A DNA stretch of 64,000 nt from assembly GCF_037860835.1 (NCBI RefSeq), contig NZ_JBBEOG010000003.1, positions 434,001 through 498,000 on the forward strand, given 5' to 3'. Both the position numbers and the translations under genes were made by a program. The notes beneath the pieces are model-generated. The model worked only from the letters and a program-made list of their open reading frames with translations, had not been told where the DNA came from and searched no databases. Origin of the DNA: Aquipuribacter nitratireducens. GTDB taxonomy: Bacteria; Actinomycetota; Actinomycetes; Actinomycetales; JBBAYJ01. Positions 5,528 through 25,996 of this stretch are shown piece by piece (the stretch's first letter is position 1; every line of letters begins with the position of its first letter).

Positions 5528-6489
5528 TCAGCCGAAGAACGCCTCCAAGGTGTCGACGAACCACGCCGCCAGGGCGGCCCCGTCGACGTCCTCGACGACG
5601 TCCACGTCGGTCCACCCCTCCCCTGCCGGTGGGCCCGACGCCCGTCGGTCGACGACGGTCTGACCCCGGGCGGGACCGCCGTCCACCTGCACGGCGACGG
5701 GCCTGCGCCGCACGGTGACGAGATCGGGTCGCGCGAGGGCGGCGACGGCGCCCGCGTCCCCGATGGTCGCGTCCGGCGCGCCCTCCTTGGCCGCGGCGGC
5801 GAGGAGGAGGCGACCGGCCAGCCGGAGCGCGGGGTGCGCGGCCTCGCTCAGCGCGCGGACCCGGTCGGGGGGAACGCGGACCCGGCCGAACACCTCCAAC
5901 CCGTACATCGTGACCGGTACGCCGCACCTGCCCGCCGTCCGCAGGACCGTGTCGGCGGCCGCGGGATCGTGGTGGACGTTGAACTCGGCGGCGGGGGTGA
6001 CGTTGCCCCCGCTGCCGCTCCCGCCCATGAAGTGGATGCGGCCGAGCCGGGCGAAGGCAGCCTCGTGTGCCCGCGCGAGGTCGGCGACGGTCGACTGGGG
6101 ACCGAGCGGGACCAGCGTGAGGCCGCCCTCGACGGCCAGCCGCGCCAGCGCGTCCGTCGCGCGCTCCTCGACAACCGCCAGCGGTGGACGCCCGCGTGAC
6201 GCGTCCGGGGCCGGCCGGCAGCCCATGAGCCCGTCGGCGCCCTGCCACCGCTCGCCGACCTCGACCGCCGGCCCGCCGCCGGGGTGCGCGAGCCCGGCGT
6301 GGACGGGGAGGTCCGCACCGGCCGCGGCGAGCACGGCCGTCGTGTTGGCGAGGACGTCGGGCAGGTCGGTGTTGCCCCCGACGCACGTCACGGCCCGCAG
6401 GTCGAGGGCCGGCTCGGCGACGGCAGGGCGAGGGCGTCGTCGACGCCCGTGTCGACGTCGAGGACGACGGTCAGCGGCCGGCTGCTCAC
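5528..6489 (-). pseudogene. Nucleoside hydrolase, single-base frameshift near N-terminus
   Basis: Nucleoside hydrolases cleave the N-glycosidic bond of ribonucleosides in salvage. The GTG at 6489 overlaps the stop of the upstream LLM gene (GTGA) and starts [21 protein letters not shown], which contains the family's calcium-binding DxDxGxDDALAL motif. The frame then runs into a stop. Adding one base near 6424 joins it to a 287-codon frame beginning AVAEPALDLRAVTCVGGNTD, the expected continuation. That frame holds the FMGGSGSGGNVTPAAEFNVHHDP active-site region. The joined protein would be about 320 residues, normal for the family. This is either a real inactivating mutation or a sequencing error. 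Confidence 0.8.
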
Positions 6490-7412
6490 CGCACGCGCGG
6501 CAGGACCTCCTCGGCCACCAGCCGCAGGTGGTCGAGGTCGTGGAGGTCCATGACCTGCAGGTACACGCGTTCGCACCCGATCGCCGCCCACCGCTGCAGG
6601 GTCTCGACGACCTCGTCGGGCGTGCCGGCGACGCCGTCGGCGCGCAGCCGCTCCGCCGTGCCGCCGGCGGCCACCGCTCGCCGCTCGACCTCCGCGTCGT
6701 CGGCGCCCACGGCGACCGTGAGCGCCGCCGAGAACGTCATGGTCGCGGGGTCGCGGTCGACGGCCTCGCACGCGGCGCGCACCCGCCCGAACTGGGCCTC
6801 GACGGTGTCGAGCGCGGCGAACGGCATGTTGAACTCGTCGGCGTGGTGCGCGGCGAGGCGCGGGGTCCGCTGCTTCCCGCCGCCGCCCACGATGACCGGC
6901 ACGTGCTCCTGCGCGGGCTTGGGCAGCGCGGGGCTGTCGACGACGCGGTAGTGCTCGCCCTCGTAGGAGAAGCTCGCCCCGAGCGGGGTGCCGAGGAGAC
7001 CCGTCACGACCGCGAGCTGCTCCTCGTAGCGGTCGAAGCGCTCCTTCACCGGCGGGAAGTCCAGTCCGTACGCCTCGTGCTCCCGCGCGAACCAGCCGGC
7101 GCCGAGACCGAGCTCGACGCGCCCGCCCGACATCCGGTCGACCTGCGCGACGGAGATCGCGAGCGGGCCGGGGTGCCGGAACGTCGCCGCCGTGACGAGC
7201 GTGCCGAGGCGGATCGTCGAGGTCTCCCGGGCGAGCCCCGCGAGCGTCACCCACGCGTCGGTCGGGCCGGGCAGGCCGTCGCCGCTGAACGCGAGGTAGT
7301 GGTCGGAGCGGAAGAACGCCCCGAACCCGCACTCCTCGGCCGTGCGGGCGACCGCGAGGAGGTCCTCGTACGAGGCGCCCTCCTGGGGCTCGGTGAACAC
7401 GCGCAGCTCCAT
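6486..7412 (-). CDS. LLM class F420-dependent oxidoreductase
   Basis: A 308-residue luciferase-like monooxygenase-fold protein of the actinobacterial F420-dependent group, probably using reduced F420 or FMN. Visible landmarks are [10 protein letters not shown] near the N-terminus, the strand [14 protein letters not shown], the conserved [15 protein letters not shown] segment and [28 protein letters not shown] box lies 7 nt before the ATG, suggesting a leaderless transcript diverging from lipA. The nucleoside hydrolase start overlaps its stop, so the two form an operon. The substrate is unknown. Confidence 0.87.
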
Positions 7413-7419
7413 GCGCGGG

Positions 7420-7425
7420 AGCCTA
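7420..7425 (-). promoter_or_regulatory. -10 box for leaderless LLM transcript
   Basis: TAGGCT (minus strand) followed by 7 nt and the ATG at 7412. The spacing places the transcription start at or next to the start codon. Confidence 0.55.
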
Positions 7426-7473
7426 TGGAATGCGCCGGCGCACCGCGCCGCAGGACGCGGTCGCGACGCGGCG

Positions 7474-7479
7474 TACCGT
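7474..7479 (+). promoter_or_regulatory. -10 box for leaderless lipA transcript
   Basis: TACCGT followed by 7 nt and the lipA GTG at 7487. No ribosome site is present, and the spacing fits a transcript that begins at the start codon. Confidence 0.6.
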
Positions 7480-7486
7480 GGGACGC

Positions 7487-8419
7487 GTGACTGTCGCCCC
7501 CGAAGGTCGTCGCATGCTGCGGGTCGAGGCGCGCAACGCCTCCGTCCCCATCGAGAAGAAGCCGTCGTGGATCAAGACGCGGGTCCGCACCGGCCCCGAG
7601 TACACCGCGCTGCAGAAGCTCGTGAAGGACGAGGGCCTCCACACGGTGTGCCAGGAGGCGGGCTGCCCCAACATCTTCGAGTGCTGGGAGGACCGCGAGG
7701 CGACGTTCCTCATCGGCGGCGGGCAGTGCACCCGGCGCTGCGACTTCTGCCAGATCGACACCGGCCGGCCGGAGCCGCTGGACCGCGACGAGCCGCGGCG
7801 CGTCGCGGAGAGCGTGCAGACGATGGGCCTGCGGTACGCGACGGTCACCGGCGTCGCCCGGGACGACCAGCCCGACGGCGGTGCGTGGCTGTACGCCGAG
7901 ACGATCCGGCAGATCCACACCCTCAACCCCGACACCGGCGTCGAGATCCTCGTCCCCGACTTCAACGGCGTGCCGGAGCTGCTCCAGCAGGTCTTCGACG
8001 CCGCACCCGAGGTGTTCGCCCACAACGTCGAGACCGTGCCCCGGGTGTTCAAGCGGATCCGACCGGCGTTCACGTACGAGCGCTCCCTCGACGTCCTCAC
8101 GCAGGGTCGCGCCGCGGGGCTGGTGACGAAGTCGAACCTCATCCTCGGCATGGGCGAGACCCGCGAGGAGGTGTCGCAGGCGCTGCGGGACCTCCACGAG
8201 GCCGGTACCGACCTCATCACCATCACCCAGTACCTGCGTCCCACGCCGCGCCACCACCCCGTCGAGCGGTGGGTGAAGCCGGAGGAGTTCGTCGAGCTGC
8301 AGGACGAGGCCCGGGAGATCGGCTTCCTCGGCGTCATGTCCGGTCCCCTGGTCCGCTCGAGCTACCGCGCGGGCCGGCTGTACCGGGAGGCGCTGGCGGC
8401 GCGCTCCGCCGTCGCCTGA
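7487..8419 (+). CDS. lipA: Lipoyl synthase
   Basis: LipA is the radical SAM enzyme that inserts two sulfur atoms into protein-bound octanoyl groups. The 310-residue protein carries both iron-sulfur sites. The auxiliary cluster cysteines are C55, C60 and C66 ([13 protein letters not shown]), and the SAM cluster motif CTRRCDFC is at C81, C85 and C88. The C-terminal RSSY motif, whose serine ligates the auxiliary cluster, is in [11 protein letters not shown]. The GTG at 7487 (VTVAPEGRR) is chosen over an earlier in-frame codon because family homology starts here and a -10 box lies 7 nt upstream. It acts on the product of LipB. Confidence 0.96.
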
Positions 8420-8427
8420 GCCGCCCC

Positions 8428-8433
8428 TATCCT
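8428..8433 (+). promoter_or_regulatory. -10 box for leaderless DUF4191 transcript
   Basis: TATCCT followed by 7 nt and the ATG at 8441, just after the lipA stop. This gives the gene its own leaderless promoter inside the lipA operon. Confidence 0.55.
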
Positions 8434-8440
8434 CGGGGCC

Positions 8441-9160
8441 ATGGCCCGCAAGGACTTCCCCGCCGCCGACGCCCCGAAGAAGCAGGGCCGACTCAAGCAG
8501 TTCGCCGCCGTCTGGCGCCTCACGACCCAGTACGACAAGGCGGCGCCGCTGTGGGTGATCGGCTCCGCGCTCGTCGTGCTCGCCGTCGGCGTGGTCCTCA
8601 CGCTGGTCGTGGCCGGCAGCGTCTTCACGACCGTCATGGGCGTCCTCACGGCGGTGCTGACGGCGCTGCTCGTCGGGCTGTTCGTCCTCACCCGCCGGGC
8701 CGACAAGGCGCTGTTCGCGCAGGTCGACGGACGGCAGGGCGCCACGGCCATCGTCATGCAGCAGCTGCGGCGCGGGTGGACGACGTCGGAGGAGCCCGTG
8801 GGGGCGGACCCGCGCACCGGTGACCTCGTGTTCCGCGCCGTCGGCAAGCCGGGCATCGTCCTGCTCGTCGAGGGTCCGCTGCCGCGGACGCTCCGCCTCG
8901 CGGAGTCGGAGAAGAAGCGGCACTCCCGCGTGGCGTCCGGCGTGCCGGTGCACGTGGTCCACGTCGGCAACGGCCCCGACCAGACGCCGCTGCGCAAGGT
9001 GTCGCGACGGCTCATGCGCATGCCGCGCACCCTCACCGGCGCCGAGGTGAGCGCCGTCGTCAAGCGGATGCAGGCGCTCGGCGGCCTCCGCGCCGCCGTG
9101 CCGAAGGGGATCGACCCCTACCGGGCCCGCGCCGACCGGCGCGCGATGCGGGGCCGCTGA
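8441..9160 (+). CDS. DUF4191 domain membrane protein
   Basis: A 239-residue protein of the actinobacterial DUF4191 family, found directly after lipA in many actinobacteria (Rv2219 in M. tuberculosis). Two membrane helices lie near residues 37-58 and 62-84. A soluble C-terminal part follows, starting with DKALFAQVDGRQGATAIVMQ and ending in a basic tail. The N-terminus is lysine-rich and probably cytoplasmic. The function is unknown. Its place between lipA and glnA1 is conserved, but that alone does not reveal a role. Confidence 0.88.
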   Translation: MARKDFPAADAPKKQGRLKQFAAVWRLTTQYDKAAPLWVIGSALVVLAVGVVLTLVVAGSVFTTVMGVLTAVLTALLVGLFVLTRRADKALFAQVDGRQGATAIVMQQLRRGWTTSEEPVGADPRTGDLVFRAVGKPGIVLLVEGPLPRTLRLAESEKKRHSRVASGVPVHVVHVGNGPDQTPLRKVSRRLMRMPRTLTGAEVSAVVKRMQALGGLRAAVPKGIDPYRARADRRAMRGR

Positions 9161-9174
9161 CGCCCCTCGGCGTC
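9159..9174. terminator. Short hairpin between DUF4191 and RDD genes
   Basis: GACGCC and GGCGTC form a perfect 6-bp stem with a 4-nt loop in the 22-nt space between two convergent genes. Outer GGCC pairs could extend it. It is a modest candidate terminator. Confidence 0.4.
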
Positions 9175-9182
9175 GAGGCCGG

Positions 9183-9677
9183 CTAGCGGCGCACGACGAC
9201 GGTCCCCGCTGCGCGGTCGTGCAACCCGCGGGAGTCCTCGTCGAGGACCACGGCGGGCACGACGAGCGCGAGCAGGAGCGTGCGGACCAGCGCCGGCAGC
9301 GGACCCACGGCCGAACCGTCCGGTCGCACGACGACGAGGCCGAGCACGCGGTGACCCACCGCGGTGCCGATCGTCCCGACGAGCAGCACCTGGACGACGA
9401 CGAACACCACGAGCGGACCGAAGGAGCCGAGGCCGTCGAGGAACGCCCCCGCGACGAGGACGGCGAGGAGCCAGTCGACGAGCAGGGCGAGGGCACGGCG
9501 CCCGACGCCCGCGACCGAGCCCGGTCCCTCCGCCGGACGCCCGAGACGCTGACCCGGGTACGCCTGCGTGCTCTCGCGCGGCCCCCCGGGTCCGCTCAGC
9601 CAGCCACCGAGGGCCCCCCGTCGGGCGGACCCGTCGTCCCCGTCGCCGTCCGCGCTGCCGTCCCGTCCGGTCGCCAC
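9183..9677 (-). CDS. RDD family membrane protein
   Basis: A 164-residue protein with a hydrophilic, Gly- and Pro-rich N-terminus of about 60 residues. An RDD domain follows: RRALALLVDWLLAVLVAG as the first helix, then VVFVVVQVLLVGTIGTAVGHRVLGL, and a final helix before GLHDRAAGTVVVRR. The family is named for conserved Arg-Asp-Asp positions; here the first helix has R and D as usual. TAGGCT lies 6 nt before the GTG at 9677, suggesting a leaderless start diverging from glnA1. The M. tuberculosis counterpart sits at the same place (Rv2219A). Function unknown. Confidence 0.85.
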   Translation of the reverse strand: MATGRDGSADGDGDDGSARRGALGGWLSGPGGPRESTQAYPGQRLGRPAEGPGSVAGVGRRALALLVDWLLAVLVAGAFLDGLGSFGPLVVFVVVQVLLVGTIGTAVGHRVLGLVVVRPDGSAVGPLPALVRTLLLALVVPAVVLDEDSRGLHDRAAGTVVVRR

Positions 9678-19878: not shown

Positions 19879-19932
19879 GACGCACCTCCGTGCCGGTCCC
19901 CCAGCGTCGCAGGTCGCCGGGGCGGGGCACCC

Positions 19933-19946
19933 GAGACCTACGTCCC
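19933..19946 (+). promoter_or_regulatory. DevR/DosR-like box at the LuxR gene promoter
   Basis: GAGACCTACGTCCC matches GGGAC-N4-GTCCC with one change. It ends 10 nt before the TACCAT -10 box of the LuxR gene, almost the spacing seen at the rhodanese gene (9 nt). Confidence 0.45.
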
Positions 19947-19956
19947 GTCCCGGCCC

Positions 19957-19962
19957 TACCAT
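19957..19962 (+). promoter_or_regulatory. -10 box for leaderless LuxR-family gene
   Basis: TACCAT followed by 7 nt and the GTG at 19970. Confidence 0.55.
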
Positions 19963-19969
19963 CGCCGAC

Positions 19970-22606
19970 GTGCCGGTCCCGGTGCTGGAGACGAAGCTGT
20001 TCGCGCCGCGCCGTCGCCGCTCGCTGGTGCCTCGCCCGGGCGCGCACGACCTCCTCACGTCCGCCGTCCGGGCCGAGCACCCGCTCGTGCTCGTCGCCGC
20101 CCCCGCGGGCTTCGGCAAGACGACGACGGTCGCGGCGTGGCTGGCCGCGCTCACCGACTCGGACGTGGACGTCCGGACCGCCTGGCTGTCGCTCGACGCC
20201 GGCGACGACGACCCGATCCGCTTCCTCGCCCACGTGGCCGCGACCATGCGTCGGGTCGGCCTCGACGCGGGGGACCTGGCGACGCTGGCGGCGGAGGGCT
20301 CACCCGTCCAGGCGGCCGCACAGCTCGTCAACACCGTGGCGGTCGAGGGCGCGCGGACGCCCCAGCGGCGGTGGGTCCTGGTGCTCGACGACTACCACCT
20401 CGTCGGCGCAGCCGCCGTCCACGACGTCGTCACGCACCTGCTGGAGCACCCGCCGCCTCGTCTGCACATCGTCGTGAGCACCCGGGCGGACCCGCCGTTC
20501 CCGCTCTCGAGGCTCCGCAGCCGCGGGGAGATGACCGAGCTGCGGACCGCCGACCTGCGTCTCACGGCAGCGGAGGCGTACGACTTCCTCCACCGCGTGA
20601 TGGGGACGCCCGTCACGCCCGAGCAGTCCGTCGCCCTCACGCAGCGCACCGAGGGGTGGGCCGCCGGGTTGCAGCTGGCCGCGCTGTCGGTGAGAGGCGC
20701 CGCGGAGACCGAGGTCGACCGGTTCGTGCGGTCGTTCACCGGGAGCGACCGGTTCGTCGTCGACTACCTCCTCGACGAGGTCCTGGCGAAGGAGTCCCCC
20801 GACCGGCGCGAGCTGCTGCTGCTGACCTCGGTGGCGGACCGGCTGACCGGGTCCCTGTGCGACGCGATCACGGGGCAGCGGACCGGGGCCCGGACGCTCG
20901 AACAGCTCGAGCGCGACAACGTCTTCGTCGTCCCCCTCGACACGACCCGGACGTGGTACCGCTACCACCACCTGTTCGCCGAGGTCCTGCGAGCTCGGCT
21001 CCGCTCCGACCACGCCGACCTCGTGCCCGGTCTCCACCGGCGTGCCGGCGAGTGGTTCGCCTCCCACGGCCACCTGCCCGACGCGGTCGGGCACGCACTG
21101 GCGGCCGGCGACCACGTCCGTGCGGCGAGGCTCGTCGAGCTCGCGCTGCCGGAGGTGCGGCGCACGCGGCAGGACGGGCTCCTCCTGCAGTGGCTCGCCG
21201 CCCTCCCCCGCGACGTCGTCCGCGGCAACCCCGTCCTCAGCATGTTCGCCGGCTGGGCGGCCATGGTCGCCGGCGACCTCGACCTCGTGGCCCGTCGGCT
21301 CGACGAGGCGGACGAGGCGCTCGCGGCCGGCGCACGCGACCGTGACGTCGCCGCGTCGTGGGCGGCGACGGACGAGCTCCTCGCGGCACCGGCCACGCTC
21401 GAGGTCTTCCGTGCCTCCCTGGCGCAGGCGAGGGGCGACGTGACCGGCACCGCCCACCACGCGCGACTCGCGCTCGACCTCTGCCGGTCCGACGACCACC
21501 TCGTCCGGGGAGCGGCGTCCGGTTTCGTCGCCCTCGCGGCGTGGGCCGAGGGCGACGCTCGGACCGGGCTCGCGATGTTCGCGCAGGCGGTCGACAGCCT
21601 CCGCGCAGCCGGGAACCTCGTGGACGCCCTCGACGGGACCCTCGTCCTCGCCGACATCGAGGTCGCGGCCGGTCGGGCGGCCCCGGCCCGCGCACGTCTG
21701 GAGGCCGCGCTCCGGGTGGCCACCGACGGATCGGTACCGGGGGCGCGGACGGCACCTGACCTCCACGTGGCGCTCGCGGCCCTCGCGCTCCGCGACGGTG
21801 ACCTCGACGCCGCCGACTCGCACCTCGCGTCCGCGGCGACGCTGCGCACGCAGACCCCGCGAACGGAGGCGAGGCACCGGTTCGCCCAGGTGAGCGCCGA
21901 GGTGCGGGCCGCCCGCGGGGACCACGCCTCCGCCCTGCGGCTCCTCGACGAGGCGGCAACCGCGTACCGCGCCGGCTTCCACCCGGACGTCCACCCGGTC
22001 GCGGCCTCCCGGGTGCGGGTCCTGCTCGCGGCCGGTGACCTCGGCGCGGCCGCGGCCGTCGTGGCCGCCCGAGGGGTCACCCTCGCCGACGACCCCGTCC
22101 ACCTGCGCCTCCGCGACCACCTCGCCCTCGTCGCGTTCCACCTCGCGCGGGCCCGCGCGGGGCTGGACGCGGACCTGCCGGCGGCGGCTGCACTGCTGTC
22201 GCGGCTGCACGAGACCGCCGTGGCCGACGGACGTCACGGGGACGCACGCGAGGTCCGGGACCTCCAGGACCTCCTCGGATCGCCGCCCGCCCGCGACGGC
22301 GCCCCGGACGACCGGTCGTCGCGGGACCAGCGGGACGGGGGGCTGCCGGAGCCGCTCAGCGCCCGGGAGCTGGACGTCCTGAGGCTGCTCCGCGGCGAGC
22401 TGAGCGGCCCGGAGATCGCGAGGACGCTGCACGTCTCCCTCAACACCCTCCGCACCCACACCCGACGGATCTACACGAAGCTCGGGGTCAGCAGCCGCGC
22501 CGCCGCAGTGCGGCGCGCCCACGAGGTCGGTCTGCTGAGGCGGCCGCCCACGCCCGGCCGGACGGATCACCAGGCAGATCACCAGCAGGATCACCACATG
22601 TGGTGA
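19970..22606 (+). CDS. LuxR family ATP-dependent (MalT-like, LAL) regulator
   Basis: An 878-residue signal-transduction ATPase with the MalT layout. The N-terminal NTPase has Walker A APAGFGKTTT (K50) and Walker B-like VLVLDDYHLV. A winged-helix part and a long helical repeat region (TPR-like, about residues 350-780) follow. The C-terminal LuxR helix-turn-helix is LSARELDVLRLLRGELSGPE onward to NTLRTHTRRIYTKLGVSSRA. Such proteins bind an inducer through the repeat domain and activate nearby genes; here these are probably the membrane protein and GNAT fusion downstream. The protein ends with an odd His/Gln/Asp tail, DHQADHQQDHHMW, encoded by a short DNA repeat. Confidence 0.9.
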   Translation: MPVPVLETKLFAPRRRRSLVPRPGAHDLLTSAVRAEHPLVLVAAPAGFGKTTTVAAWLAALTDSDVDVRTAWLSLDAGDDDPIRFLAHVAATMRRVGLDAGDLATLAAEGSPVQAAAQLVNTVAVEGARTPQRRWVLVLDDYHLVGAAAVHDVVTHLLEHPPPRLHIVVSTRADPPFPLSRLRSRGEMTELRTADLRLTAAEAYDFLHRVMGTPVTPEQSVALTQRTEGWAAGLQLAALSVRGAAETEVDRFVRSFTGSDRFVVDYLLDEVLAKESPDRRELLLLTSVADRLTGSLCDAITGQRTGARTLEQLERDNVFVVPLDTTRTWYRYHHLFAEVLRARLRSDHADLVPGLHRRAGEWFASHGHLPDAVGHALAAGDHVRAARLVELALPEVRRTRQDGLLLQWLAALPRDVVRGNPVLSMFAGWAAMVAGDLDLVARRLDEADEALAAGARDRDVAASWAATDELLAAPATLEVFRASLAQARGDVTGTAHHARLALDLCRSDDHLVRGAASGFVALAAWAEGDARTGLAMFAQAVDSLRAAGNLVDALDGTLVLADIEVAAGRAAPARARLEAALRVATDGSVPGARTAPDLHVALAALALRDGDLDAADSHLASAATLRTQTPRTEARHRFAQVSAEVRAARGDHASALRLLDEAATAYRAGFHPDVHPVAASRVRVLLAAGDLGAAAAVVAARGVTLADDPVHLRLRDHLALVAFHLARARAGLDADLPAAAALLSRLHETAVADGRHGDAREVRDLQDLLGSPPARDGAPDDRSSRDQRDGGLPEPLSARELDVLRLLRGELSGPEIARTLHVSLNTLRTHTRRIYTKLGVSSRAAAVRRAHEVGLLRRPPTPGRTDHQADHQQDHHMW
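22565..22598 (+). repeat. Three GATCACCA repeats in the end of the LuxR gene
   Basis: Three short GATCACCA units at about 11-nt intervals form the last codons of the LuxR-family gene and produce the His-rich tail. The next gene starts about 80 nt later, so the repeats could also be DNA sites for the protein itself or another regulator. Confidence 0.5.
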
Positions 22607-22682: not shown

Positions 22683-23372
22683 ATGACCGTCACCACCCCC
22701 GCCCTCTTCCGGGCCGCCGCCGTCGCCGCTGGTGCCTCGGGCGTCCTCTTCGTCGCCGTGCAGGTCGCCCACCCCCACATGGACGCCACGACGATCACCA
22801 CGACCGAGCTCGTCGTGCGCAACAGCACCAAGGTGCTGATGGCCGTGCTCGCACTCGCGGGCGTCACCGGCCTCTACCTCCGGCAGGTCCGCGAGGCGGG
22901 CGTCCTCGGGCTCGTCGGGTACCTGCTCCTCTCGGCGGGCTACCTCGTGATCGGTGCCGTGGCCTTCGTCGCCGGGTACGTCCTGCCGGCCGTCGCCGGC
23001 AGCGCACCGGAGTACGTCGACGGCGTCCTCACCATCGCGACCGGCGGGACGACCTCCGCCGACACCGGCAGCTGGCCCGTGGTCAACGCGGTCCAGGGCG
23101 CGGGCTACCTCCTCGGCGGCCTCGTGTTCGGGATCGCGCAGGTGCGCGCCCGCGTCCTCGCCCGTTGGGCCGCGTGGCTCCTCGTCGCGGCGACGGTCGC
23201 GACGCTGGCGGTGCCCGTCCTGCCCCATGCCCTCGACCGCGCCCTCGCCGTCCCGGCCGGCGCGGCCCTCCTCGGACTCGGCTGGTCGCTGTGGCGGTCG
23301 ACCCGTTCCGCAGCCGCTCCGGTCGACCCGGCCGTCCTGGTCCGCGGCGGGCGCGTCGCGGGCCCACGATGA
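22683..23372 (+). CDS. DUF4386-like membrane protein
   Basis: A 229-residue protein with about six hydrophobic segments, starting TVTTPALFRAAAVAAGASGVLFVAVQVAHP and containing STKVLMAVLALAGVTGLYLRQV. This is the layout of the small transmembrane proteins that often follow LAL-type LuxR regulators in actinobacteria. The ATG has a CAGGAG ribosome site. The stop overlaps the next start as ATGA, so the two genes are coupled. Function unknown; a membrane sensor or stress protein controlled by the LuxR protein is plausible. Confidence 0.7.
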   Translation: MTVTTPALFRAAAVAAGASGVLFVAVQVAHPHMDATTITTTELVVRNSTKVLMAVLALAGVTGLYLRQVREAGVLGLVGYLLLSAGYLVIGAVAFVAGYVLPAVAGSAPEYVDGVLTIATGGTTSADTGSWPVVNAVQGAGYLLGGLVFGIAQVRARVLARWAAWLLVAATVATLAVPVLPHALDRALAVPAGAALLGLGWSLWRSTRSAAAPVDPAVLVRGGRVAGPR

Positions 23373-24295
23373 GCGTCCGACCCGCCGCTCGCCCGGTCCG
23401 CTCCGAGATGAGACCCGCCGTGGACGGCTCGTCGCCGCACGTCCGGATCCGGGTCACCGGTCGGCTCGACGCGCCCTGGGCCTCGTGCTTCGACGGTCTC
23501 GACGTGCACCACGACCCGGACGGCTCGACGGTCCTGTCCGGCACCCTCGTCGACCAGGCGGCGCTCCACGGGCTGCTGGGGCGGCTCCGCGACACCGGCG
23601 CGACCGTCGCCGGGCTCCGCGTCGGAACCGCTGCACCACCCCAGCCGCCGCACGGCGCGGTCGCCCAGCGGCGGTCCTGCCAGGATCCGACCGTGTCACG
23701 CCCCCTCGACGGCATCGTCTGGCCCGTGCGCACCCTCCGGCTGGAGCTGCGCCCCGCGGCGCCCCGCGACGTGGCGGCGACCTGGCGGTACCGGCGGCTC
23801 GACGAGGTGACCCGCTGGATCACGCGGGCGCCCCTGGACCGGGAGTCCTACGCACGCGACTTCGTCGACCCGCAGCGGCTCGCCGCCACGATCGTCGTGT
23901 CGGCGGGCGCTCAGGTCGTGGGCGACCTCATGCTGCGCGTCGAGGACGCCTGGGCGCAGGCGGAGGTCGCCGCGGCCGCCAGGGGAGTCCAGGCCGAGCT
24001 GGGCTGGGTGCTGGATCCCGCAGTCCGCGGCCGCGGGTACGCGACGGAGGCGGTCGAGGCCGTGCTGCGCGTGTGCTTCGAGGAGCTCGGGCTGCGCCGG
24101 GTGCACGCCCGGTGCTTCGCGGCGAACGACGCCTCGTGGCGGCTCATGGAGCGCGTCGGGATGCGACGGGAGAGCCACACGGTGCAGGAGTCGCTCCACC
24201 GTTCGGGCCAGTGGTACGACGGTGTCGGGTACGGCATGCTCGCCGGGGAGTGGCGGGGCGCGCGAGGCAGGGCGCAGCCGGGCGGGCGACCGTAG
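23369..24295 (+). CDS. Small conserved domain fused in frame to a GNAT acetyltransferase
   Basis: A 308-residue open frame with two parts. Residues 1-90 contain VRIRVTGRLDAPWASCFDGL and TVLSGTLVDQAALHGLLGRLRD, a domain normally found as a stand-alone protein of about 80 residues after LAL regulators. Residues 109-308 form a RimJ/RimL-type GNAT domain with LRLELRPAAPRDVAATWRYR, the acetyl-CoA loop region [18 protein letters not shown] and NDASWRLMERVGMRRE. The linker reads like untranslated spacer, and a GTG at 23693 preceded by CAGGAT could start the GNAT separately. So this is a real fusion, two overlapping genes, or a lost stop. The ATG at 23369 overlaps the upstream stop. Confidence 0.65.
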   Translation: MSVRPAARPVRSEMRPAVDGSSPHVRIRVTGRLDAPWASCFDGLDVHHDPDGSTVLSGTLVDQAALHGLLGRLRDTGATVAGLRVGTAAPPQPPHGAVAQRRSCQDPTVSRPLDGIVWPVRTLRLELRPAAPRDVAATWRYRRLDEVTRWITRAPLDRESYARDFVDPQRLAATIVVSAGAQVVGDLMLRVEDAWAQAEVAAAARGVQAELGWVLDPAVRGRGYATEAVEAVLRVCFEELGLRRVHARCFAANDASWRLMERVGMRRESHTVQESLHRSGQWYDGVGYGMLAGEWRGARGRAQPGGRP

Positions 24296-24304
24296 GGTCT
24301 CGGG

Positions 24305-25996
24305 ATGACGTCCACCGCGGAGCGTCCCTGGCTCGCCGCCTACGCGGAGGGGGTCCCCGCCGACGTCGACGTGCCGGACGTGCCGCTCGACGACCTGCTG
24401 CGGCGGGCCGCCGAGCGCTACGGCGACCAGGTCGCCCTCGACTTCTTCGGCGCGACGACGACGTGGACGGCGCTCCTCGACGAGGTCGCCGCGGCCGCCG
24501 CCGGTCTCCGCGACCTCGGCGTCGGGCCCGGTGACCGCGTCGCGCTCGTGCTGCCGAACTGCCCGCAGCACGTCGTCGCCTTCTACGCGGTGCTGCGGCT
24601 CGGCGCGGTCGTCGTCGAGCACAACCCGCTCTACACGGCCGGCGAGCTGCACCAGCAGCTCGCCGACTCCGGAGCGGGCACCGCCGTCGTCTGGGACCGC
24701 GTCGCCGGCGCCGTGCGGGAGGCGGGTGAGGGCACGTCGCTGCGGCGGGTCGTCGCCGTCGACCTCACCCGCGCCCTGCCGTGGACCCGCCGCCTCGCCC
24801 TCCGCCTCCCCCTGCCGCGGGCACGGGCCACCCGCCAGGCCATGACGGGCCCGGCGCCCGGCGCGCTGCGCTGGGACGACCTGCTGCGCGACTCGACGCC
24901 ACTCGACGCCGGGACACCGAGTCCGGCGTCCGGTGACACCGCGCTGCTGCAGTACACGGGCGGGACGACCGGCACCCCGAAGGGAGCGGTCCTCACGCAC
25001 CGCACCCTGCTCGCCAACGCCCTGCAGGGCCGGGCGTGGGTGCCCGGCCTGCGCGAGGGCGAGGAGACGATCTACGCGGTCCTCCCCCTGTTCCACGCCT
25101 ACGGGCTCACGCTGTGCCTCACGTTCGCCGTCCACATCGGCGCGACGCTCATCCTGTTCCCCCGCTTCGACGCAGACCAGGTCCTCGACGCCGTCGGACG
25201 ACGCGCCCCCACCTTCCTGCCCGCCGTGCCCCCGGTGTACGAGCGGCTCGCCGAGCGCGCCGCGGAGCGCGGCGTCGACCTGTCGTCCGTGCGCTACGGC
25301 ATCTCCGGCGCCATGGCCCTGCCGACCGCGACGGCCGAGCGGTGGGAACGGCTCACCGGCGGGCTGCTCGTCGAGGGGTACGGCATGACGGAGACCTCTC
25401 CCGTGACCCTCGGCAACCCGGTGTCGCAGGCGCGCCGACCCGGCACGATCGGCGTGCCGTTCCGCTCCACCGACATCCGGGTCGTCGACCGGGAGGACCC
25501 CTCCCGTGACCTCCCTCCCGGCGAGGCCGGAGAGCTGCTCGTCCGGGGCCCGCAGGTCTTCTCCGGCTACTGGCGTCGACCGGAGGAGACCGCGCGCGTC
25601 CTCCTCGACGGCGGCTGGCTGCGCACCGGGGACGTCGTCACGTGCTCCGACGACGGCTTCGTCACCGTCGTCGACCGGACCAAGGAGCTCATCATCACCG
25701 GGGGCTTCAACGTCTGCCCCTCCGAGGTCGAGGCCGCTGCGAGGGCGGTCCCCGGCGTCGCCGACGCCGCCGCGGTCGGGCTGCCGGGCCCGGACGGCGG
25801 TGAGCAGGTGGTGCTCGCCGTTGTCGCCGACGACGGCGTGGACCTCGACCCCGACGCGGTACGGGTGGGCTGCCGCGAGCGGCTCGCCGGCTACAAGGTG
25901 CCGCGACGCGTCGTCGTCGGCGAGGACCTCCCCCGCTCGCAGATCGGGAAGGTGCTCCGCCGGGAGGTCTGCGACCGGCTGCTCGCCGACGACTGA
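24305..25996 (+). CDS. Long-chain fatty acid--CoA ligase (AMP-binding)
   Basis: A 563-residue ANL-superfamily enzyme that activates a carboxylic acid to an acyl-CoA through an acyl-AMP. Motifs in order are LQYTGGTTGTPKGAVLTH (P-loop), GYGMTETSPVTLG, GWLRTGDVVTCSDDGF with the ribose-binding aspartate, TKELIITGGFNV, and the C-terminal catalytic lysine in RSQIGKVLRR. The length fits the FadD group. TAGGGT, made partly by the stop codon of the GNAT gene, lies 6 nt before the ATG and suggests a leaderless start. With the P450 and acyl-CoA dehydrogenase nearby it may belong to lipid breakdown. Confidence 0.92.
   Translation: MTSTAERPWLAAYAEGVPADVDVPDVPLDDLLRRAAERYGDQVALDFFGATTTWTALLDEVAAAAAGLRDLGVGPGDRVALVLPNCPQHVVAFYAVLRLGAVVVEHNPLYTAGELHQQLADSGAGTAVVWDRVAGAVREAGEGTSLRRVVAVDLTRALPWTRRLALRLPLPRARATRQAMTGPAPGALRWDDLLRDSTPLDAGTPSPASGDTALLQYTGGTTGTPKGAVLTHRTLLANALQGRAWVPGLREGEETIYAVLPLFHAYGLTLCLTFAVHIGATLILFPRFDADQVLDAVGRRAPTFLPAVPPVYERLAERAAERGVDLSSVRYGISGAMALPTATAERWERLTGGLLVEGYGMTETSPVTLGNPVSQARRPGTIGVPFRSTDIRVVDREDPSRDLPPGEAGELLVRGPQVFSGYWRRPEETARVLLDGGWLRTGDVVTCSDDGFVTVVDRTKELIITGGFNVCPSEVEAAARAVPGVADAAAVGLPGPDGGEQVVLAVVADDGVDLDPDAVRVGCRERLAGYKVPRRVVVGEDLPRSQIGKVLRREVCDRLLADD

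Follow-up and report, generated by a model that had tools for sequence, protein, structure and literature searches.

The gene at positions 23369–24295 of the window (the whole 64,000-nucleotide stretch of Aquipuribacter nitratireducens DNA analysed here, positions 434,001 to 498,000 of contig NZ_JBBEOG010000003.1) joins, within a single open reading frame (ORF), a small domain carrying a DQxxLHG motif to a GNAT-type acetyltransferase. As a gene the fusion is genuine, and it recurs in eight other genomes; to judge from the sequences, it is probable that a fused protein is made. Since the same joined gene recurs in several genera, usually in the same neighbourhood, the arrangement suggests a role for the domain in controlling or positioning an acetylation reaction. 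The parts of the gene are as follows.

23369–24295, forward strand: fused gene of domain, linker and GNAT, 308 amino acids; an open frame, with an architecture that is repeated in the eight other genomes.
23438–23626, forward strand: DQxxLHG domain of approximately 63 residues, without annotation, placed by alignment and a predicted model.
23627–23692, forward strand: linker of 22 codons with a weak coding signature.
23693–23695, forward strand: in-frame GTG, a possible internal start, with AGGA 7 nt upstream and at the usual start position of stand-alone relatives.
23738–24166, forward strand: GNAT domain (PF13302, from Pfam), with the acetyl-CoA motif RGRGYA, from the translation.

The frame proceeds from the ATG at 23369 to the TAG at 24293–24295 through 308 stop-free codons, as seen in the ORF and its translation, and its ATG overlaps the stop codon of the upstream gene (22683–23372) as ATGA. 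Downstream of the domain, the first stops of the other two frames occur at 23808 and 24532. Within the protein the domain occupies approximately residues 24–86 and the linker residues 87–108, GTG 23693 corresponds to residue 109, and the PF13302 match extends from residue 124 to 266. GNAT families are the sole Pfam matches in the whole 308-residue protein, the best being to PF13302 (Acetyltransf_3; E 2.7e-25), with a score of 90.1 bits against a gathering cut-off of 25.4. The acetyl-CoA motif [RQ]xxGx[GA] has a variant with R in first position, which RGRGYA fits, and it is on the PF13302 match and this motif that the second half is assigned as a putative GNAT. The original prediction, made from the letters of the window, was that a third protein encoded behind a regulator and a membrane protein lacks a stop and continues as a GNAT enzyme, and this reading of the frame was borne out.

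Recurrence was examined by searching a profile of the DQxxLHG domain against 396 genomes of the order, with further matches fetched. In G690, G708 and G743 the domain runs in frame into the same GNAT, while a search with the window protein among 186 genomes of a second family added G902, G816, G919, G843 and G842. Counting only the best-scoring places, which were those fetched, the fusion is present in 8 of the 186 genomes of the second family, across five genera, and in 4 of the 396 genomes of the order-wide sample (the window genome G000, G708, G690 and G743). Adjacency was then counted over 302 loci, with the window and the eight fusion genomes of one other family, and with a GNAT score of at least 140 as threshold. 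Such a GNAT was found at 55 distinct places, of which nine have the domain directly upstream, in every case as a single ORF; a stop between adjacent domain and GNAT, the finding that the prediction had named as speaking against it, occurs at none of them. At the other 46 places no domain was detected in up to 1.5 kb upstream. The linkers of the nine fusions measure 3, 3, 15, 21, 63, 63, 75, 78 and 117 nt, every one of them open, and in several of the longer ones small and proline residues are abundant. Purifying selection acts on both halves in the second family, where five pairs of fused genes, three of them drawn from the same three genomes, gave ratios of non-synonymous to synonymous substitution (dN/dS) of 0.15–0.35 for the domain and 0.12–0.29 for the GNAT.

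The open junction had first been put down to chance read-through, on the basis that 77 of 85 domain matches (82 loci, 80 of them from a scan with the window domain) stop no more than 35 codons past the domain and 8 run on for at least 148 codons, and that the GNAT relatives for the most part stand alone, but the wider search, with nine of nine adjacent places in frame, overturned that conclusion. None of those 8 long read-ons enters a GNAT by Pfam, one of the partners being without assignment, and of 177 distinct domain places 161 have a stop no more than 40 codons past the domain. Several GNAT relatives from the same order begin at the position of GTG 23693. A sequencing or assembly artefact that conceals a stop or frameshift in this genome would be in keeping with the weak codon-position bias of the window linker and with the two congeners examined, in which no comparable fused locus was found (one has a distant domain match); the occurrence of the same fusion in other genomes, in G743 within one contig, nonetheless makes it extremely improbable.

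The biochemical role that we infer for the fusion draws on the genes around it, the following three being those of immediate concern.

19892–22606, forward strand: tested part of a LAL-type LuxR regulator (PF17874, PF00196), the longest ORF of which begins at GTG 19718.
22683–23372, forward strand: small membrane protein, designated MEM, with no Pfam family above cut-off and with homologues in related loci.
24305–25996, forward strand: AMP-forming acyl-CoA synthetase (PF00501, PF13193), 9 nt downstream of the fusion.

Under this reading the fused gene would give a two-domain acetyltransferase with the N-terminal domain as a regulatory or docking module, a proposal that, taken as a whole, we rate at just short of an even chance. 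The N-terminal domain would bind either a partner belonging to the LAL/membrane-protein system or a small ligand, and binding would switch or position the GNAT, as the ACT domain does in the ACT-GNAT PatA enzymes; the GNAT would in turn acetylate a protein or metabolite tied to the LAL/membrane signal. One candidate substrate in this genome would be the adjacent acyl-CoA synthetase, which carries PRSQIGK (PX4GK) near its C-terminus. The domain is cast as a binder of ligand or partner because elsewhere it stands alone beside LAL genes, because its predicted fold is ferredoxin-like, and because DQxxLHG is present in the nine fusions; that it regulates or docks the GNAT is offered tentatively, as a possibility of somewhat less than even likelihood. 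The confidence placed in the fusion product, in the role of the domain and in the reading as a whole was lowered because start-type codons lie near every junction and because the invariance of DQAALHG is partly an artefact, both of which are described below.

The nearest known counterpart is found among the ACT-GNAT PatA enzymes of actinobacteria, which are regulated by amino acids, with Asn or Cys activating via the ACT domain, and one of which acetylates acetyl-CoA synthetase in a PXXXXGK motif (PMC6434083). AAPatA resembles the window protein in layout, in the fold that is predicted for the window domain and in a related acetyl-CoA motif, QXXGX(G/A) as opposed to the RGRGYA of the window (PMC6434083). 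However, the window domain has no Pfam ACT match, lies in a LAL operon and precedes a GNAT that is best matched by PF13302; comparison with five ACT rows by hhalign, a weak test, gave no real match either. The DxPGxL given there for the β1–α1 junction of ACT is likewise absent from the window-domain consensus, which reads KGHLDxRW at that point. Closer relatives lack one or other half of the fusion: the stand-alone LAL-associated proteins have the same domain and an adjacent LAL gene but, unlike the fusion, are followed by a stop, whereas stand-alone PF13302-type GNATs of the same order, of which L002–L009 are 44–60% identical to the window GNAT, have no domain in the stretch of up to 1.5 kb upstream. 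No description of this fusion was found in the titles and abstract openings of open-licence papers.

A number of findings weigh against the proposed role, the first set of them concerning the junction. The GC contents of the three codon positions in the window linker (∼0.83/0.74/0.78, counted over 23 codons) amount to a weak coding signature, and the comparison of window and G708 (dN/dS 0.79 for the domain and 0.45 for the GNAT) is between genes too diverged to be trusted and gives no evidence of constraint. Moreover, the window GTG at 23693 sits at the usual start position together with AGGA. The original prediction had put forward this GTG, preceded by CAGGAT, as an alternative start for the GNAT, and the motif is indeed present, with 6 nt from its T, and 7 nt from AGGA, to the GTG. 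Among stand-alone relatives with a clear anchor, to which the count was limited (two of 55 rows were dropped for want of one), 25 of 44 show a start-type codon precisely nine codons ahead of a conserved W (position −9) and 35 of 44 have one within one codon of it. A start-type codon at −9 is found in three of the nine fusions, namely the window, G708 and G816, the latter two also with GTG. In the window, then, the alternative start is at the expected place, with AGGA, but it does not extend to the other six fusions, which have no start-type codon there. Each of those six does have a start-type codon between −25 and −2, a range from which a few stand-alone relatives may start; the best Shine–Dalgarno (SD) match among them is of 4 nt, for a TTG that falls within the domain's last strand.

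By comparison, start-type codons account for 67 of 1633 codons in three genes of the window, and 13 of the 1633 have in addition an SD match of at least 4 nt. Because its position is shared with relatives, and because a start codon with an SD is rare in the window genes, the GTG with AGGA is probably, on this sequence comparison, the retained start of a formerly separate gene, and it may still be working here to give a shorter second product. The lack of an SD in the other fusions was considered as proof of expression from the fusion start only; this argument was dropped, as an SD of at least 4 nt accompanies the −9 start codon in just 7 of the 25 stand-alone relatives that have such a codon. 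It is possible, if doubtful, that the working GNAT is a 200-residue product initiated at GTG 23693 and that the fusion is a tolerated by-product of a stop-less overlap. The shared −9 position of the GTG, also seen in G708 and G816, the rarity of start codons with an SD, and the stop-less domain genes described below all fit such an arrangement, which is harder to reconcile with a junction that is open at all nine adjacent places despite linker lengths that differ between genera, or with the six fusions that have no start-type codon at −9.

Unrelated, non-GNAT genes are also joined to the domain without a stop, at 9 of the 177 distinct domain places. The partners comprise DUF4386 (L058, L079, L108 and L166), DUF6326 (L045), a zinc-type dehydrogenase (L093), an ABC ATPase (L080), a hydrolase-like protein (L066) and a protein without family assignment (L101). 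Since seven of these nine junctions have a strong SD, AAGGAG or AGGAG at 6–7 nt ahead of an ATG (there being no background rate for those genomes), the partners have the look of independent genes preceded by a neighbour without a stop, and the dehydrogenase, ABC ATPase and hydrolase were for that reason set aside as functional clues. The suggestion that the GNAT fusion provides an enzymatic clue to the domain is therefore weakened by these other in-frame partners. Stop-less domain genes that run into the next gene constitute a recurrent type of gene overlap in their own right. In three Chloroflexota records, at approximately L045:4214–4290, L058:4226–4302 and L101:4253–4330, the domain genes have a common tail, QFNETHPYRSKKE(K/I)(E/K)MNT, in which AAGGAG and ATG are embedded; the gene that follows differs (DUF6326, DUF4386 and the protein without assignment, respectively), as if the genes behind the tail had been exchanged at the start codon.

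A second set of unfavourable findings concerns the domain, which shows no sequence link to any ligand-binding family in Pfam, PDB or hhalign comparisons. Residues 1–108 match no Pfam family at an E of 1 or better and no NCBIfam model, the domain has no sequence match in PDB, and the 80 domain relatives examined gave weak matches to only 8 Pfam families, ACT and acylphosphatase not being among them. The predicted model (mean pLDDT 86.9) has secondary structure elements in the DSSP order E H E E H E, and the domain is thus predicted to adopt a ferredoxin-like βαββαβ fold. The best Foldseek match is to acylphosphatase (E 5.3e-3), which is weak, and the fold is a common one. The best VIA matches are permuted S6 proteins (Z 9.1, 1.7–1.8 Å over 66 residues), followed by the regulatory subunit of acetohydroxyacid synthase (Z 8.3, 2.3 Å over 64 residues), with Lrp/AsnC proteins matched as well (Z 7.0–7.8). 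Acylphosphatases, ACT-containing regulatory subunits and Lrp/AsnC proteins therefore share the predicted arrangement at scores typical of a common fold, with no sequence relation to the window domain found for any of them, and the matches to this predicted model indicate a common fold as opposed to a function.

An 80-row alignment of the domain has nine invariant columns, DQAALHG included, and its conserved positions are grouped at G10–W16 and D41–G47. However, VDQAALHG had served as one of the search seeds and is present in 80 of the 82 domains from those loci, so that the argument for a binding site from DQAALHG invariance was cut back. In a set of 101 domain sequences from loci that were retrieved by other means, fusions included, 36 have DQAALHG and 65 have DQxxLHG, the latter being present in the alignment of all nine fusions; the motif is common and not invariant, the apparent invariance of DQAALHG being partly an artefact of retrieval. 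In ferredoxin-like folds the β1–α1 and β3–α2 loops lie side by side, and because of this the two conserved stretches could form one site. Ferredoxin-like folds also often dimerise. This last property, together with the presence of LAL and MEM genes upstream of seven of the nine fusions, would suit a real fusion in which the domain is a passive adaptor, for dimerisation or as a tether to the LAL or membrane protein, and binds no ligand. We regard such an adaptor as unlikely, in that the conservation at G10–W16 and D41–G47 would suit a specific site, a weak point given that the seeded search exaggerates the second cluster. A wider form of the regulatory reading, and an unlikely one, would make of the DQxxLHG domain a sensory module, widespread among LAL systems and so far undescribed, that reads an operon signal and gates the acetyltransferase. 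If true, some LAL modules would act through acetylation besides transcription. The domain lies mostly beside LAL regulators, yet has no match in Pfam and NCBIfam, and fusion to an enzyme would give this otherwise unassayable small protein a measurable read-out, in that ligands, membrane partners and LAL proteins could be screened by acetyl transfer.

Also unfavourable is that no homologue of the acyl-CoA synthetase was found in the stretches around the eight other fusions (for G816 only ∼0.7 kb downstream was available), for which reason the synthetase is named as a candidate only, and an improbable one, as substrate. The phylogenetic evidence is of the same tenor: the LAL tree and the MEM tree both mix operons that carry the fusion with operons that do not, so the fusion has been gained repeatedly, lost repeatedly, or both, and the GNAT half is either dispensable or repeatedly acquired. 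In quick trees, LAL, MEM and the domain require 5, 4 and 5 changes, respectively, between fused and unfused states. In the GNAT tree (51 rows), six fusions group together (support 99/95), as do G816 and G919 (100/98), with the stand-alone L230 as sister of that pair (96/90); the window takes no firm position in this tree, and a poorly supported branch (55/82) already sets it apart, together with six other fusions, from the remaining rows. Approximately unbiased (AU) tests on the GNAT tree gave p values of 0.356 with all nine fusions kept as one group and 0.178 with the window left out of that group, and a single origin is neither shown nor rejected. At one unfused locus (L269, reverse complement, 5983–9315) a LAL–domain pair is followed on the same strand, ∼2.6 kb downstream, by a stand-alone GNAT of the same family, a possible precursor arrangement.

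With regard to the upstream genes, the regulator of the window has the C-terminal LuxR helix-turn-helix and MalT-like tetratricopeptide repeats of a LAL protein of approximately 900 residues, with matches above cut-off to PF17874 (E 8.5e-31) and to PF00196 (GerE; E 3e-12); for an N-terminal NTPase part, the AAA_16 match scores 28.7 bits, below the cut-off of 32.6. Neither the window MEM nor its G708 homologue matches DUF4386 (PF14329). MEM homologues of 159–208 bits lie between LAL and domain at six other fused and nine unfused loci, and one of 123 bits does so at L268. The seven fusions with LAL and MEM upstream are those of the window, G708, G902, G690, G816, G919 and G743; G842 has neither. 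In G843 (L251) the MEM and DUF2306-like genes are apparently truncated and merged and no LAL was detected, that is, the fusion has been kept in a decaying operon. A DUF2306-like gene, assigned by Pfam in G708 and by similarity to the G708 gene elsewhere, precedes seven of the nine fusions, the exceptions being the window and G842.

Among 20 unfused domain loci that we selected for comparison, nine have the order LAL–MEM–DUF2306-like–domain, one LAL–MEM–domain, eight LAL–domain and one DUF2306-like–domain, with nothing above the score cut-off at the remaining one. More broadly, 76 domain places had 2.5 kb or more of upstream sequence (seven of them fused, and most picked for their likeness to the window domain); a LAL match lies upstream on the same strand at 68 of them, and 13 have directly upstream a gene with at least four predicted membrane spans by a crude hydropathy count. 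It follows that LAL plus domain is the common core and that the LAL–MEM–domain trio is a subset. The trio had been described as recurrent and actinobacterial, and it does recur, at seven of nine fusions and ten of the 20 comparison loci, although a LAL gene beside the domain with no membrane gene is commoner. Of 396 genomes sampled from the phylum, 53 contain the domain, which is not limited to actinobacteria, being present also in records from Chloroflexota, Bacillus and Paenibacillus. At three loci (L088, L093 and L052) two copies of the domain lie within a few kb of each other.
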